Part shown: in pieces, positions 649 to 36,365 of the stretch
Position numbering within the stretch: the stretch's first letter is position 1
Layout of the letters: the number at the start of each line of letters is the position of its first letter
IMG/VR virus record: IMGVR_UViG_3300025769_000151
Coordinates: 1 to 54,593 of that record
Strand: one strand, 5' to 3'
DNA: 54,593 nucleotides
Origin: a virus
Translations under genes and position numbers: made by a program
Notes under the pieces: model-generated
What the model saw: only the letters and a program-made list of their open reading frames with translations
Databases searched by the model: none
What the model was told of the DNA's origin: nothing

Positions 649-3600
649 TGGCTATTGATAAACTGACACCTCGTTATCTGAACTTGGATGACGACGAGCG
701 ATTGGTGCAAGCTGTCCAGATGACAGATGCCCTGAATGTCGACATCTCTGTGGACGACGAAGAGGATGCTGGTGTCATCAAGCAGGCTCAGGGAAACAGG
801 CAGGGACGTGCTAGGAACGTTTCTGACAACCTACCCTCAGGGGTTAACCATGTAATCTCCAGCATCAACTACGACGCAGGAGGGGTGGTATTCTACTACG
901 TCTGGAACAGCGATAACGACCACGGCGTCTACATGTACGACACAGCGCAGCACGACTTCGTGAAGTTGTACGAGAGCAGCGCACTTGCTTTTGAGAAGAA
1001 CTCTCACATCCAGAGCGAGGTTGTGAAGATGGGTAACGGGGACCTCCTGTTGTACTTCACAGATGGTAACACTGAGCCAAAAAAAATAAACGTCAGCAGG
1101 CTTCTATCGGCTTCCTACGACGCATCCATTGATACGTCTACCGTTGCGTTGAATGCAATTACTGTGTGCAAGAGGCCACCAATGAGGCCACCAACCTTTA
1201 CCTTTGTACAGGCTGGCGAGGCTGAGACCGTTGTGAATAGAATCGTCGACAACGTGTTTCAGTTCGCCGCCCAATACGTCTACGTGGACGGAGAGGTGTC
1301 TGCCATCGGGCCTTACTCGAAGCTTTCGTATTACGAAGACCACTTCAACCCAACAGGCACCATGACCGACCTGTACCTGACGCAGTTTGATGCGATTGAG
1401 GTCTCGGTTGAAAAGGCTGGGCTGAACGACGACACTGGCGCGAATGTAGACGGAGATGTAAAAGCTGTACGGTTCCTTGCGAGGAACGGAAACACTGGGG
1501 CTTGGCATGTCTTTGGTGAGAGGAACACCTCTTACAATAGCACCGTTGCACAAGACACCTTTACAAACTCCAAGGCCTATAGGATTATTGGTGACGCAGA
1601 AACAAACAAACTGTTTGACAACGTGCCCTACAAGGCTACGTCTCTTTGCGTTGCTGAGAACAGGCTGTTCTTCGGGAACTACGTGGATGGTTACGACGCC
1701 ACGACTTGGCCAAATGTAATTAAGAAGAATGCAGGCCTGAGCACCCACTCTTTCCCTGTGGAAACAGGCATTGAGGAACTCGCGGTCAACCTAGGTGGCG
1801 ACGACTTCCCCGCTAACTATCTAAACGAGATAGAACATGCCTACAGGTCTCTTGAGACGCACAGGCAGCAGTACGAACCATTTGTAGCGATGGAGCCTCG
1901 TTCTGAAAATAGTCTTGCACAAGACCCAAACCTCGGCACTGCAGATAGCTTGGGTGGGTACTTCGTGCAGGCGAAGGGCTCTAACTCCCCCGACGACTCG
2001 GGTGAGTTTTTTGGCGGAGATACAACCAAAGTGCCTTGGGCTATTTCAAGTTCGGGTGACACAGGCGAAGCCGGACCAATCGAACCCAACATGGCTTGGG
2101 GTATGGGCAACTCAAACCGAATCGAAGTCGTACTTGACATGGACCAAATCCCTGTTGATGGATATGGTGTTTCTGGTCAGGTAGGTCTTACTTGGGCTGT
2201 TGAAGGTTCAAGGGCTATGATTATCCCAAACTACCGAAACCAAACGGGAAAGATAGAGTACGATAGAAGGTTCAAACCATTCCCCGAGGGCACAGAAACT
2301 GGCTCAGACAACTCTGTACAGACGGAGAAGTTTAAGCTTTTTCACGGGGGTGACTCAATCGCCTCAGCCGATGACCTTAACCTAGACGAAAATGTTTATG
2401 GATACTTCAAGGTCTGTGGTATTGCAGGTATCAACTGGGGTTCCGGAACTGACCAGAGTGTAACGATTGACACTCAAGCCGCCATGACAAGGACCGAGAT
2501 TGCTCAGGCTCTCGCTGACAAAATTATGGAACAGCAGGTGGGCTTCGCTGTAGGCGGAAACGCTTTTGCTACAGCCCACGGAAACCACTACAGGAGAAAC
2601 GTCGCTTTGTTCGCTACGATTGACAGAAATGACCAGTCAAAGATGTGCAGGTACCTCCTGACGAACAATGGCAACAACAACGGTCAGGCGATGAACTTTA
2701 GAGCTACTACGGCTTTTGTAGTAGGCGCAGGTGGCACGAGTGTTCAACTGCACGTTCAGTATCAGCTCGACTCTCTGAACATGACATTCAACAGAGTTGC
2801 ACATGCAGGACCAGCAATTCGTGTCACAGGAGCGGGCGGTGTTGGTGGGCTTCAGCAGCAGTTGCAGCCTCAAGGGCTAGACACGACAACACCCCTTGAG
2901 GACGGTAACATCGTCTTGGAGATGACCAGAACTGGGAATGGCATTGACGGGGCTGAGGGCGGAGGAGGAGCAGAGGACCTGTACCATAGTGCAATTCTAG
3001 ACTGGAACTCTAGCGAAAAGGAGGGGAATATATCTTTCACCACTAGCGTATCTAGCGCTGGCGACATCGGAGTCAACAGGCTCACGTTTAGGTCAGGCGC
3101 CCACCACCCACTTGGCGTCGTCTTCTATGACCACAGAAACAGAAGCAGCAATGTAAACCTGCTTCCAGAATCTTACGTCCCGTTCTCAGGTTCAGCAGAC
3201 TCACCCGTAGGTAACGGCAGCGATGTCCTTGTACCTTACGACATCGACGTAAACTTCCGCAAAGAGTTCATTCCGGACTGGGCTGAGAGGTATCAAATCG
3301 TCTACGCAGGCAACTCACTCTTCTCGGACAGCTTGACTGTGACTGTTGGTGAGGCCTTGGTCGCGGATATGTCGAAGGTTGTCATTAGAGACCCGTCCTT
3401 CAGTGATGGGGATGACGTCGACGCAGACTCTCTCGAGGAGGGTGTAACTGACGAAACCAACTTTGGCAACTTCCCCAGCATGGCGGTCGCTGAGTCTGTG
3501 GGTATCATCAACAATGCCATCTACCTCCCGATGAGATTCTTCGAGGGTAAGGTTGACTCTTACAAGGAGTCCAAGAGCGCAAGACTTAACTACGAGTTTA

Positions 3601-6425
3601 GGCCGGGCGACAAGCTTAGGATTATTAGCTACGCTGCGGCTGGACAGGATGATGTCTTGTCTAACGCCTTCCCCAAGAACTACTTCTTTGACGTGCTTGG
3701 CTACAAGTACTTTGAGGCGAACTCCGACCAAAACGTATTGGTCCTCCCCAACCAAGAGGACGGAAACTTTACAGCAGAAGGTGAGTACCGCCGCTCTGGA
3801 TGGATGTTGATTCTTAGGGGTGACAACGTGCAGTACCCGGGCTTTAGACCTGATGATGTTAGAAACCAGAACTCTACTGTCAACCGATGGGGTCAAGACG
3901 TCCGCGTTGAAATCCTTAGGCCGCGTGTTGATGTTGTCGATGAGGACAGAGTCTACTACGAGATTGGGGAGTCATTCCCTGTAGGTAAGGATTCAAAGCA
4001 GCCAAATAGTTACAACAACGAGTTCCCAGTCGTCTTTTCTCCCGGTAGTGAATCCAACGGGACGTATAGGGTTAAAACAATTCAGCGCTTGTTTAGGGGC
4101 GATGAGTTCTATGCAATCAAGCTTGCCACCGAAGCCGACGTGGCGGCTGACAATGGGGATAACCCACTGAACTACTTCTTTGGATTTAACGACCCACCTA
4201 CAGGCTTGGGTGGCGACCCGCTCAATGCGAACGACGACGCCGAGTCAAACGTGTACACGGTAGGCAGGGTTCTAGGAAGATTTTACGACCAATCACTTGA
4301 CTACGAGTATTACGAGTACGAGGTTTTTGAAAGTAAGCCGTACACAGGTTCCGGTTCGCTAGGACCCAGCCCGGACCCGTTCCAAATCTTTACGGAGCCG
4401 TTTGCAGCAAACCCTGAGGGATTCCCAATCAGCTCCACGGCCGCCATGTGTGAGTTCGTGATGAACAACAGATTCGTCAATGTGCATCTTACCGACCAAG
4501 GTGACACGTACTTCAGGCAACGAGACATGCGTACCTCTGCTGTCATCGGAGGCTCCTATGACCCGGGCCAGCTGACCAATGCTACGGATGCGAACTTCAT
4601 TCGTAGAAACATCGAGGACCCCGGGTTCAACGACTTCTTGCCGTCTACGGTAACTAGGAACTATCACTTTGGAAGACCACACATCTTTAGCCCTGAAGAG
4701 CAGACCAGTGTGCGCTCATCTTCTGTAACGTACAGCGACCCCTACGCATCTGACGGGGAGGTATTGGCACTGTCCAGCTTCAACCCATCAATGTTCCCAT
4801 TCAAGGACTACAACCTCAGGTACGGCGGTATTCAGAGAATGTTTGACATGGGCGGCGGCATCGCCATGCTTCACGAGAGAAAGGTGTCATCGACTCCTGT
4901 AAGCAAGGACTACTTGTCTACAGCAGATGGCGGCATGATGATTGCTTCCAACAAAGTTCTTGGCACCGAGCGGTACTACGCAGGGGAGCACGGCATCGGC
5001 AAGTACAGCAAGGGGGCGGTTTCGCATGGCGGGGCCATCTTCTTTGTGGATGTCGAGATGGGTACTGTGTGTATGCTTGGTGGCAACGGCATTCAGGTCA
5101 TTAGCGACAGGAAGGTTGACTCTTACTTCAAGGATAGGCTTGAGAGAGTTCAAGGCGCGATGATGTACGCGGCCACGCTGATTGGTGTTCACCCCGACAA
5201 CAAGGAAATCATCGTAGCTGTCAACAGCAGAGCCAGAAGAGACATCCGTGTCGACGGCATAGCCTATGGTAGAAACCTTCCTGTGGATGGGGACGACAAC
5301 ACCAAGTTCGACCTGACGATGATGCAGAAAGTCTACAAGATTGCAGGCTCTCCTCTGGACATTGTTAACGAAAGACAAAACTGGGAAGACGTATTTATGG
5401 ATTGGGGCGAAGCAGGTAAGGGTGTAGTGCTTGTGGACCAGCCACGCGAGCTGGGCTACGTGGACGCAGGCCTTTCCGGCAAAGTGACCCACGACTTCCT
5501 TGTGACAGATAAGGACAGCAACTTTGCTGCTAAGATGACTCAGGGCATTCGCTCTCGGCTTGGAACACTCGACGAGACAGCGGGCGGGGCTAGGGATAGC
5601 GGGGGCTCAGGGCAGGCTTCAAAGGGCACCGTGGCAGGTGCCGAGCGAGGCTCCATCGGGTACAACTATGAGTCCAAGGTGTGGACGTCCAAGTACTCGT
5701 TTGAGCCAGAGGACATCGTCAGCATCTTCGAGGACTTCCTGACATTCAGCAGCGGTTCTCCGTGGAGGCATGATGACTTGGGTACGGTAAACAACTACTA
5801 TGGCGTGCAGTACACGTCTGTTGTGGAGGCCATCTCAAAGATGAATCCTTCTATGGTGAAGCTGTACAAGGCGCTGAGCCTTGAAGGTAACTCTGTATGG
5901 TCTGCCGAGCTGTCTAACTCTGACCAGTCATCAACCATTACGGTTGACATGTGGAAAGACCAAAACATTGACGGTACACTCAGGGCTGGCGATGGATTCA
6001 GAGAGGGTATGCTGTACTGCAACATGCCGGGTGACACCAGCACGTCAAGCCATCTCGATGAGATTACGATTGGTGAGGTGACCGACGTAACCACACCGGG
6101 AGAGATTAAATTCAAGGGCAGGGTCAACAACATCCCGTTCAACTCAGGGGACAGGCTGTTCCTTGCCGATGGTACAGACACCACCCGAACAATCACAAGT
6201 GTCAAAGACAGAAACACCCTCAACGTCAGTGCAAACACTGGCATCAATGTGGGTGACATCCTTGTCGCGCAGAGCAGGGCAGACGCATCGCACATTGCAG
6301 GTGACCGCCTGAGAGACTACTATCTAAAAATTAAACTGACAAACTCTTCTACCACGAAGGACGAGCTCTACGCCATCAACGCGATTTACGAGCGCTCACG
6401 CCTTCATAACGACAGAGTTAACTAA
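648..6425 (+). CDS. Giant tail stabilisation-like structural protein (1925 aa)
   Basis: A very long, beta-rich protein with few cysteines and no signal peptide or membrane segment. The N-terminal 200 residues contain the pattern FYYVWNSDNDHGVYMYD followed about 55 residues on by LLLYFTDGNTEPKKINVSRL. I recognise this type from the so-called stabilisation or tail-tube B-like proteins of crAss-like and Cellulophaga-type podoviruses. The rest is repetitive beta structure with many Gly, Asn and Asp residues, consistent with a tail hub or nozzle component. It begins at ATG 648, overlapping the TGA of the neck gene, and is followed by three candidate internal proteins. The length is large for this family, suggesting inserted beta domains. 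Role as a structural tail protein is likely; the exact part is an inference. Confidence 0.7.
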   Translation: MAIDKLTPRYLNLDDDERLVQAVQMTDALNVDISVDDEEDAGVIKQAQGNRQGRARNVSDNLPSGVNHVISSINYDAGGVVFYYVWNSDNDHGVYMYDTAQHDFVKLYESSALAFEKNSHIQSEVVKMGNGDLLLYFTDGNTEPKKINVSRLLSASYDASIDTSTVALNAITVCKRPPMRPPTFTFVQAGEAETVVNRIVDNVFQFAAQYVYVDGEVSAIGPYSKLSYYEDHFNPTGTMTDLYLTQFDAIEVSVEKAGLNDDTGANVDGDVKAVRFLARNGNTGAWHVFGERNTSYNSTVAQDTFTNSKAYRIIGDAETNKLFDNVPYKATSLCVAENRLFFGNYVDGYDATTWPNVIKKNAGLSTHSFPVETGIEELAVNLGGDDFPANYLNEIEHAYRSLETHRQQYEPFVAMEPRSENSLAQDPNLGTADSLGGYFVQAKGSNSPDDSGEFFGGDTTKVPWAISSSGDTGEAGPIEPNMAWGMGNSNRIEVVLDMDQIPVDGYGVSGQVGLTWAVEGSRAMIIPNYRNQTGKIEYDRRFKPFPEGTETGSDNSVQTEKFKLFHGGDSIASADDLNLDENVYGYFKVCGIAGINWGSGTDQSVTIDTQAAMTRTEIAQALADKIMEQQVGFAVGGNAFATAHGNHYRRNVALFATIDRNDQSKMCRYLLTNNGNNNGQAMNFRATTAFVVGAGGTSVQLHVQYQLDSLNMTFNRVAHAGPAIRVTGAGGVGGLQQQLQPQGLDTTTPLEDGNIVLEMTRTGNGIDGAEGGGGAEDLYHSAILDWNSSEKEGNISFTTSVSSAGDIGVNRLTFRSGAHHPLGVVFYDHRNRSSNVNLLPESYVPFSGSADSPVGNGSDVLVPYDIDVNFRKEFIPDWAERYQIVYAGNSLFSDSLTVTVGEALVADMSKVVIRDPSFSDGDDVDADSLEEGVTDETNFGNFPSMAVAESVGIINNAIYLPMRFFEGKVDSYKESKSARLNYEFRPGDKLRIISYAAAGQDDVLSNAFPKNYFFDVLGYKYFEANSDQNVLVLPNQEDGNFTAEGEYRRSGWMLILRGDNVQYPGFRPDDVRNQNSTVNRWGQDVRVEILRPRVDVVDEDRVYYEIGESFPVGKDSKQPNSYNNEFPVVFSPGSESNGTYRVKTIQRLFRGDEFYAIKLATEADVAADNGDNPLNYFFGFNDPPTGLGGDPLNANDDAESNVYTVGRVLGRFYDQSLDYEYYEYEVFESKPYTGSGSLGPSPDPFQIFTEPFAANPEGFPISSTAAMCEFVMNNRFVNVHLTDQGDTYFRQRDMRTSAVIGGSYDPGQLTNATDANFIRRNIEDPGFNDFLPSTVTRNYHFGRPHIFSPEEQTSVRSSSVTYSDPYASDGEVLALSSFNPSMFPFKDYNLRYGGIQRMFDMGGGIAMLHERKVSSTPVSKDYLSTADGGMMIASNKVLGTERYYAGEHGIGKYSKGAVSHGGAIFFVDVEMGTVCMLGGNGIQVISDRKVDSYFKDRLERVQGAMMYAATLIGVHPDNKEIIVAVNSRARRDIRVDGIAYGRNLPVDGDDNTKFDLTMMQKVYKIAGSPLDIVNERQNWEDVFMDWGEAGKGVVLVDQPRELGYVDAGLSGKVTHDFLVTDKDSNFAAKMTQGIRSRLGTLDETAGGARDSGGSGQASKGTVAGAERGSIGYNYESKVWTSKYSFEPEDIVSIFEDFLTFSSGSPWRHDDLGTVNNYYGVQYTSVVEAISKMNPSMVKLYKALSLEGNSVWSAELSNSDQSSTITVDMWKDQNIDGTLRAGDGFREGMLYCNMPGDTSTSSHLDEITIGEVTDVTTPGEIKFKGRVNNIPFNSGDRLFLADGTDTTRTITSVKDRNTLNVSANTGINVGDILVAQSRADASHIAGDRLRDYYLKIKLTNSSTTKDELYAINAIYERSRLHNDRVN

Positions 6426-34728: not shown

Positions 34729-34751
34729 CTTGTATGGGTTTAAGTGTTTGT

Positions 34752-34817
34752 GGTGCAGGGGGAGTCGAACCCCCGACGCCCAAGGATAACCCTCGTATAG
34801 CGTCCTCCAAGTACACC
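34752..34817 (-). ncRNA. tRNA-like structure 1 (no standard anticodon arm)
   Basis: On the minus strand GGTGTA (34817-34812) pairs with TGCACC (34757-34752) as a 6-bp acceptor-like stem. A textbook T arm precedes the 3' strand: GGGGG, loop TTCGACT, CCCCC. Directly before it, GACGC (34804-34800) pairs with GCGTC (34779-34775), and inside that CGAGG pairs with CCTTG. There is no normal D arm, and the inner loop can be drawn as GGTTATC, lacking U33 and purine 37, so decoding is unlikely. The T arm and acceptor could still be seen by RNase P or RNase Z. It sits 27 nt after the end of the 149-residue gene. Confidence 0.5.
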
Positions 34818-34844
34818 TGTGGTCTACATCCTAACTTAGTCCAC

Positions 34845-35294: not shown

Positions 35295-35329
35295 GAAATT
35301 GAAGTTTGTGTGCCGAAGCACGGGTTAGA

Positions 35330-35388
35330 ACAACGGGAGGGAGTCGAACCCTCACCACCCTACCGAGGTGGCACGCCTGTGCCGTTGC
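35330..35388 (-). ncRNA. tRNA-like structure 2, minimal cloverleaf
   Basis: On the minus strand GCAACGG (35388-35382) pairs with CCGTTGT (35336-35330), seven pairs with a G-U at the end. It is followed by a 3-bp mini D arm CAC-AGGC-GTG, and then an anticodon-like arm CCACC, loop TCGGTAG, GGTGG. After one base comes a perfect T arm GAGGG, TTCGACT, CCCTC. All four arms are present in only 59 nt. Positions 8-9 are missing, the variable loop is one base, and base 33 is C instead of U. The nominal anticodon would be GGT (Thr). This is smaller than bacterial tRNAs; a processing signal or tRNA mimic is more likely than a decoder. Confidence 0.55.
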
Positions 35389-35657
35389 TGACGCCATGGC
35401 GGGTGGATAGCCCCGCAGTCCCAAGCTGGCTTGTATCATGGCGGTGTAGTCAATAGTGTTTGCGTTACTTCTTCCTCCATCCACGCCCTGCGGTGTCGGC
35501 TCGGGGTGTAGGTAGTTTCATCATGTCAAAGAACTGCGCTCTTCGGTGAGTGGTGTGTGCCCACCATGCTTTCTGCATACATGGTGCGAGGTGCGCTCCG
35601 TGGAGCGGGTCGTTTAGTCAGCGACAGGCAGTACGTCAATAGTCCGAGGGCGGTTGC

Positions 35658-35666
35658 CGTTGCAAC
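35658..35666. repeat. CGTTGCAAC repeat, copy 1
   Basis: CGTTGCAAC recurs at 35829-35837, where it is extended to the perfect palindrome CGTTGCAACG. The two copies are 171 bp apart in the non-coding early leader, as expected for a protein-binding site used twice. Confidence 0.4.
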
Positions 35667-35838: not shown

Positions 35839-36204
35839 TCCGTGCCAACCCCGTTGGTGGGGTCAGTTTGGGATGGTTGGACCTAGGGGATGGGGTTGTT
35901 CGGCCACCCTGCATAGGTAGTCCAACTTGCTATTGACAATTCACCGAATCGTGTTGACAAAAACGCTAGAAGTTTCTGCAATACAAACGGGTAAACCCTA
36001 CCCCCCCACTAGGAATAATCGACTTCCGTATGACGTGACGCACGTGTACACATAGACATAATCCCCACCCCACAAATATCTCAGGACTTTTTCAGGGAGA
36101 GGGTCAGGACAAGGATTGACAAATCACATGATACTATCAGGCAATGGGCTGACATGTATGTGTTTCCTTTTTGAGCTGTACAGAATCGACTTTTAGCCCA
36201 CAAG

Positions 36205-36278
36205 TACTCCCGGCAGGACTCGAACCTGCAACCTGCACATTAGAAGTGTGCTGCTCTTTCCAGTTGAGCTACGGGAGC
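36205..36278 (-). tRNA. tRNA-Arg (anticodon UCU)
   Basis: A canonical 74-nt cloverleaf on the minus strand. It has acceptor GCTCCCG with CGGGAGT, D arm GCTC/GAGC, and anticodon arm GCACA/TGTGC around CTTCTAA, giving anticodon TCT. The variable loop is five bases and the T arm is GCAGG-TTCGAGT-CCTGC. No CCA is encoded. It would read AGA (and perhaps AGG) codons, which are visibly frequent in the late structural genes. The start lies 13 nt after the leftward promoter element, so it is the first product of the early transcript. Confidence 0.95.
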
Positions 36279-36291
36279 ATATCGTTTGACA

Positions 36292-36323
36292 CAAAGGTAC
36301 TTACAAGTTCTCGAGTAAACAAA
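36292..36323 (-). promoter_or_regulatory. Leftward early promoter
   Basis: On the minus strand TTTG (36323-36320) and TACCTTTG (36299-36292) are separated by 20 bp, a full match to the Bacteroidota consensus TTTG-N17-23-TAnnTTTG. It reads into tRNA-Arg and the whole early arm. It is paired back to back with a rightward promoter that has the same spacing. Confidence 0.75.
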
Positions 36324-36334
36324 CACTTTGGGAC

Positions 36335-36365
36335 TTGACTTTTTGATTTTTTTCCCGTAACTTTG
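36335..36365 (+). promoter_or_regulatory. Rightward promoter at arm divergence
   Basis: TTG (36335-36337), 20 bp, then TAACTTTG (36358-36365) match the Bacteroidota promoter consensus. It reads toward the late genes through a 170-nt structured leader. Its -33 box lies 12 bp from that of the leftward promoter, so a single protein could control both. Confidence 0.7.

Follow-up and report, generated by a model that had tools for sequence, protein, structure and literature searches.

The window analysed here, 54,593 bases long, is one entire IMG/VR virus record. Its terminase and portal place it in a podovirus group with cultured relatives on Flavobacterium and Cellulophaga, so that the host is probably a Bacteroidota bacterium. 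Genes run leftward from ~36.3 kb and rightward from ~36.5 kb. Promoters of Bacteroidota follow the consensus TTTG...TAnnTTTG; from 37000 to 34600 the minus strand has a single match to it, which ends 13 nt before a tRNA-Arg (UCU), the first gene of the leftward transcript, which is present in every relative whose locus reaches that far. A back-to-back match on the plus strand (TTGACTTTTTGATTTTTTTCCCGTAACTTTG, 36335-36365) faces rightward. The tRNA-Arg is followed by a long non-coding region, a tRNA-like structure (TLS1), a gene for 148 aa, a second tRNA-like element (TLS2) and a gene for 92 aa (Table 1); the 148-aa protein reaches an AlphaFold2 pLDDT of only 51.6. Within the same early operon, ahead of a short lipoprotein-like gene, a 225-nt non-coding spacer (33953-33728) lacks the T-arm motif and may hold a further structured RNA.

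Table 1. Features of the early leftward region, in order along the minus strand.
Feature	Position	Strand	Basis or remark
Bacteroidota-type promoter, TTTG-N-TAnnTTTG	36292-36323	minus	motif match; conserved in all relatives
tRNA-Arg (UCU), canonical	36204-36278	minus	ARAGORN; Rfam 70.2 bits
Conserved non-coding structured leader RNA, ~700 nt, covarying helices	35389-36085	minus	alignment, RNAalifold
Near-invariant segment GUUGC-AACG-GCAAC with a duplicate of the TLS1 acceptor 5' strand	35653-35666	minus	alignment, folding
Three-way-junction domain, strong covariation	35392-35443	minus	ends 3 nt upstream of TLS1
TLS1, 59-nt four-arm tRNA-like structure	35330-35388	minus	sequence, fold, homologue alignment
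TLS1 acceptor	35388-35382/35336-35330	minus	
TLS1 D arm	35381-35372	minus	
TLS1 anticodon-like arm	35371-35355	minus	
TLS1 T arm	35353-35337	minus	
Hairpin GUGC-UUCG-GCAC	35310-35321	minus	8 nt past TLS1
First early gene after TLS1, 148 aa	34845-35291	minus	no family match
TLS2, second tRNA-like element	34751-34818	minus	TLS1 covariance model match, alignment, folds
Second early gene, 92 aa	34450-34728	minus	starts 22 nt past TLS2

The ~800 nt between the tRNA-Arg and TLS1 contain no conserved reading frame and are conserved from about 36085 downward; a coding leader was ruled out, as the longest open runs differ and indels disrupt the frames. For the last 370 nt of the leader, RNAalifold predicts 96 pairs, 21 of them showing two-sided changes; GUCG-CUGACUAAA-CGAC, for example, is replaced by GCGG..CCGC and GGCC..GGCC, and four variants of the hairpin AAGCCAGCUU near 35430 exist among the relatives. 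In the three-way-junction domain, one helix occurs as CAAG/CUUG, CCGG/CCGG, CGAG/CUCG or CUAG/CUAG, and another as GCGGG/CCCGC, GGGAG/CUCCC or GUGGG/CCCAC. The leader matches no family of Rfam 15 and no cultured phage or plasmid, it has no relative in bacterial genome contigs, and a search with one of its motifs gave matches confined to contigs of this phage group and one fragment. TLS1 is the last domain of this conserved non-coding leader RNA.

A sequence-only reading of this DNA had described TLS1 as a minus-strand cloverleaf with four arms in only 59 nt, and both sequence and coordinates proved to be as described, with an MFE fold that reproduces the arms. Taken alone, TLS1 folds at -25.3 kcal/mol into a 7-bp acceptor that includes G1-U72, a 3-bp D stem with an AGGC loop, a CCACC/GGTGG arm, a one-base variable region and the T arm GAGGG-TTCGACT-CCCTC. 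This energy is by itself unremarkable (z = -1.4; 18 of 200 shuffles were equally stable), and, not being significant alone, it was dropped as proof of the structure. TLS1 is not a chance structure. Three sites in the window, namely the tRNA-Arg, TLS1 and TLS2, fit a descriptor that combines a YUCRANY T loop with a 5-bp T stem and a 7-bp acceptor, whereas dinucleotide shuffles average only 0.03-0.09 such sites each; in ~960 kb of related contigs nearly all matches to the descriptor are tRNAs and these elements, with a few in coding sequence. Wider scans for TLS1-like patterns beyond the phage group, which returned mostly ordinary tRNAs or chance coding matches, were set aside.

Canonical bacterial tRNAs have 72-95 nt, linkers at 8-9 and a 7-nt loop with U33, whereas TLS1 has 59 nt, no bases 8-9, C33 and a loop of 6-7 nt. 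The tRNA-Arg is the only call of ARAGORN in normal mode and of Rfam at the gathering threshold; TLS1 is called by neither (RF00005 in the case of Rfam), nor by the mitochondrial mode of ARAGORN at its normal threshold. At relaxed E-values it aligns over its full length to tRNA-Sec (22.7 bits vs a cut-off of 47) and to the mascRNA-menRNA family RF01684 (19.7 bits vs a gathering threshold of 42.5), and it scores 16.4 bits vs a threshold of 40 with the tymovirus TLS model. The tag frame in a closed RNA and the score above cut-off that would mark a tmRNA were not found. By model score, TLS1 is not a tRNA, tmRNA, mascRNA, GOLLD or ROOL. In sequence and secondary structure it carries the components of a tRNA elbow, that is, a stacked acceptor and T arm, a UUCRANY T loop and a GG in the D loop, and these motifs are invariant in all 11 TLS1 sequences and retained in TLS2. 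Its T arm and acceptor resemble tRNA 3' ends by blastn, with no parent tRNA emerging. An intrinsic terminator was considered and rejected: the T arm is flagged as terminator-like, but the entire cloverleaf is conserved, a gene comes directly after it and the T-rich tail is weaker in one relative (L010). The hairpin just past TLS1 varies among relatives, with a UACG loop in L002, GUGCC-ACA-GGCAC in L010 and GCGC-AACGU-GCGC in L013.

Relatives fetched through the 148-aa gene comprised nine loci at 78-97% identity, one end fragment and one more locus at 74%. TLS1 is found in all ten related loci that reach the site, at the same place, ~38 nt ahead of the AUG of the 148-aa gene, and occurs in five distinct versions. 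Its pairing is kept in 98 of the 98 cells scorable on both sides, compared with 49-66% when the 3' partners are shifted by 1-3 columns as a control. The compensatory changes that the sequence-only reading had called for in homologues occur in the D and T stems, few in number and drawn from five distinct sequences: A-U, G-C and U-A alternate at T-stem pair 2, C-G and A-U at D-stem pair 1, and in L013 the D arm changes from CAC-AGGC-GUG to CCC-GGU-GGG, whereby the middle pair goes from A-U to C-G and the GG is retained. One-sided changes in the acceptor also keep the pairing (1:72 as G-U or G-C; 7:66 as G-C or G-U), and L010 gains an additional U-A pair in the anticodon-like arm. Constant in all versions are the GG of the D loop, UCGGUA in the central loop and UUCGACU in the T loop. 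The 7-base anticodon-like loop noted earlier is thus correct for the window and is not conserved, as L007 and L010 have only the 6 nt UCGGUA, so that the constant part is this hexamer rather than a 7-nt anticodon loop. The acceptor 5' strand and the UCGGUA loop are invariant beyond the needs of a simple cutting signal. Among relatives collected by terminase, many showed no TLS1, their contigs being mostly fragments.

TLS2 was found downstream of the 148-aa gene with a covariance model built on TLS1. It has a 6-7-bp acceptor (GGUGUA/UGCACC; GGUGUG/CACACC in L013), a stemless GG loop, a hypervariable central arm and the T arm GGGGG-UUCGACU-CCCCC. The central loop ranges from 3 to ~38 nt across relatives: in L002 the arm is ACGC-UAU-GCGU, with a 3-nt loop and a whole element of 51 nt, whereas L005 carries an insert of ~38 nt with AUGC/GCAU at its base, and in L013 the base is GGGG/CCCC. 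Unconstrained folding gives one plan for six of six versions tested, and four pairs show two-sided changes, the observed covariation score being reached by none of 500 shuffles in an alignment from which the hypervariable loop had been excised by hand beforehand. A central arm this variable cannot decode, and its variability points to the top half, which processing enzymes read, as the selected part. What stays fixed across versions is the acceptor, T arm and GG loop, which RNase P and RNase Z recognize (PMC11693755). TLS2 thus bears on two views of TLS1 in the sequence-only reading: the idea of a processing signal or tRNA mimic gains from it, as from the compensatory changes, the single promoter match and the retention of the D-loop GG and T loop required for the elbow that RNase P and Z see, while the view of TLS1 as a lone oddity does not survive a second element. 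In L010, positions 3480-3511 within TLS2 give a weak tmRNA match (RF00023, 22.7 bits vs a 47-bit cut-off).

More distant members of the family, at about 73-75% terminase identity, do not carry the 148-aa gene; they do possess the tRNA-Arg(UCU). In three of them (G018, G032 and G037) this tRNA lies 15-16 nt ahead of the first early AUG, and in two others (G036 and G015) it is followed by two other tRNA-like elements, with the AUG ~20 nt later. The family thus repeatedly places a tRNA or tRNA-like structure shortly ahead of an early AUG; an exception is G013, where ~200 nt separate the tRNA-Arg from the AUG. The two elements of G036 and G015 (L150, 15617-15542 minus and the next 66 nt; L165, 1375-1450 and following) consist of a 76-nt element with a perfect acceptor (TCGGAAG/CTTCCGA) and T arm, and another with the acceptor GGGCG/CGCCC and a central arm that differs by ~15 nt between both phages. 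About 200 nt past the tRNA-Arg, G013 (L144) and G015 (L165) share a conserved non-coding leader of another kind (ACCTTGTCGGGTGAGGTGGG...GACTGAC...), which has a seemingly covarying helix and is apparently a second type of leader RNA in the family.

The sequence, fold, conservation, covariation and position of TLS1, together with the promoter match, make it fairly probable that TLS1 serves as a processing element, conserved and tRNA-like but without a decoding role, and that in this Bacteroidota phage the early leftward transcript is cleaved there by the host's RNase P and RNase Z. A single promoter would yield a transcript with the tRNA-Arg, the ~700-nt non-coding RNA, TLS1, the 148-aa gene, TLS2 and the 92-aa gene, and onward; RNase P would cut 5' of each element and RNase Z 3' of its acceptor, both recognizing the acceptor/T-arm top half and the elbow with the D-loop GG. 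Cuts at the tRNA-Arg, TLS1 and TLS2 would free the tRNA and set both ends of the structured RNA, each early mRNA would be left with a short leader, 22-38 nt up to the AUG, and the 5' end of the first mRNA after the RNase Z cut would lie near the conserved hairpin at 35321-35310. Any benefit to expression would follow from these predicted cuts. Phage P4 CI RNA is reportedly a precedent for RNase P cutting of a phage RNA, and is not relied on here.

By its anatomy, TLS1 would work like a plant t-element or a mascRNA. The mascRNA and menRNA (RF01684) found at the 3' ends of MALAT1 and MEN-beta are likewise ~60 nt long, with an intact acceptor and T arm, a GG in a reduced D arm, no linkers and a non-standard anticodon arm, and lie directly 3' of a long non-coding RNA; mascRNA, whose reduced D arm has two conserved Gs, is cut by RNase P and Z and remains uncharged (PMC11693755). 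These RNAs are, however, mammalian and nuclear, TLS1 scores only 19.7 vs 42.5 bits with their model, and the likeness carries no claim of common ancestry; unlike them, TLS1 also stands ahead of an mRNA and is followed downstream by a second such element. The t-elements of plant mitochondria are tRNA-like, lie at mRNA ends, are cut by RNase P and RNase Z and are uncharged (PMC11658184). In position the phage elements agree with them, TLS1 and TLS2 standing 38 and 22 nt before AUGs on what would be a shared transcript from a single upstream promoter match, but plant t-elements derive from known tRNA genes and have ordinary folds, whereas no parent tRNA is evident for the phage elements and their cleavage is predicted. 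As in mitochondrial tRNA punctuation, tRNA shapes would separate genes of one transcript, although the phage uses non-functional mimics and confines them to the operon's first part. GOLLD and ROOL are also large structured phage RNAs beside tRNA genes (PMC12286853), but the leader matches neither in Rfam, differs in sequence and has a terminal tRNA-like domain. TLS2 further resembles the tRNA-like domain of tmRNA in its stemless GG D loop, acceptor, T arm and replacement central helix; unlike a tmRNA, neither normal ARAGORN nor Rfam calls one in the window.

The acceptor 5' strand of TLS1, GCAACGG, is duplicated exactly 275 nt upstream at 35663-35657, and the segment 35653-35666 can form either a hairpin or an alternative partner for the TLS1 3' acceptor strand. 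In full-leader MFE folds this strand takes the upstream copy in 6 of 9 sequences, gaining 3-9 kcal/mol over the local cloverleaf, and the T arm persists in local and remote folds. In addition, the conserved segment 35554-35544 (ACCACUCACCG) can pair over ~11 bp with the TLS1 central arm CGGUAGGGUGGU (35366-35355) and is a possible switch partner of that arm. The upstream copy, the ACCACUCACCG pairing and the invariance of UCGGUA suggest a role for TLS1 beyond that of TLS2, perhaps as one half of a switch, and for the same reasons, remote pairing included, confidence in the punctuation of the operon is held at moderate. It is unlikely, if worth serious attention, that TLS1 is the 3' end of a large leader RNA whose T arm and 3' acceptor strand close it on the upstream copy (35663-35657), as the tmRNA acceptor closes a long RNA, perhaps in alternation with the local cloverleaf. 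The copy is exact and near-invariant in all relatives, the remote pairing is also chosen by RNAalifold with nine sequences, and the invariant 3' flank CUAACCCG is complementary to the upstream flank CGUGUU; but the copy is self-contained as a hairpin whose sole variation (AACG to AAUG, L007) falls in the loop, the local D-stem changes (C-G to A-U, A-U to C-G) favour the local cloverleaf, no comparable upstream copy was noted for TLS2, and energies of long-range pairing are unreliable. Somewhat more doubtful is the combined proposal that the leader represents a large phage RNA of a new class, whose 3' acceptor strand picks one of two identical 5' strands and so gates the release of mRNA by RNase P and Z; the choice would then close a large RNA or free a mini-tRNA, and tRNA mimicry would act as a switch of early expression.

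A cis-regulatory mimic bound by a host aminoacyl-tRNA synthetase (e.g. ThrRS through the GGU-like loop) or by a phage protein, controlling translation downstream or titrating the protein, is improbable. TLS1 lies directly ahead of an AUG, its invariant UCGGUA contains GGU and low-threshold ARAGORN reads it as tRNA-Thr(ggt), but at this setting the program reports 408 'genes' in the window, the loop has 6 nt in two relatives, base 33 is C, and the hypervariable central arm of TLS2 prevents a joint explanation from resting on an anticodon. The synthetase or RNase decoys raised by the sequence-only reading found no evidence. That the elements are decaying remnants of phage tRNA genes nearing loss would fit the genuine tRNA-Arg in the same family and the better preservation of T arm and acceptor; compensatory changes, full pairing in all versions, invariant loops and a fixed distance to the AUG indicate selection and make decay very improbable. 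The usual core of a tRNA-derived attachment site (attP) is the T arm plus the acceptor 3' strand, and the 3' part of TLS1 does match tRNA 3' ends, but such an origin is scarcely credible given that no integrase was found among the proteins scanned, that selection acts on the whole cloverleaf rather than on a 3' identity block, and that the TLS1 5' portion and relatives of the 148-aa gene are both absent from the bacterial genome contigs searched.

The clearest known non-decoding tRNA mimics that serve as RNA cutting signals are those of mammalian nuclei and plant mitochondria, and among the open-licence papers searched none was found to describe a phage operon punctuated by tRNA-like structures. 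A phage operon of this design would mean that a bacterial virus had invented the device independently, would provide a minimal set of natural substrates for bacterial RNase P and RNase Z (e.g. the 51-nt TLS2 of L002), and would offer a reason for phages to keep tRNA genes at operon starts; the leader is in itself a large conserved phage RNA absent from Rfam.

Further tRNA-like elements were seen elsewhere. A 51-nt element in L033 (6063-6013 minus; same record as L192) has a 7-bp acceptor (CCAACGA/TCGTTGG), a perfect T arm and just 20 nt between them, and lies beside a cluster of Cys, Gly, Phe and His tRNAs. Another short element occurs in a virus contig, L036, near 4521-4590, and an intergenic gap of L196 (MW202828.1, 523-629) contains an uncalled tRNA-like structure of 107 nt, in which the D region looks normal, the central arm is very long, and both acceptor and T arm are perfect.
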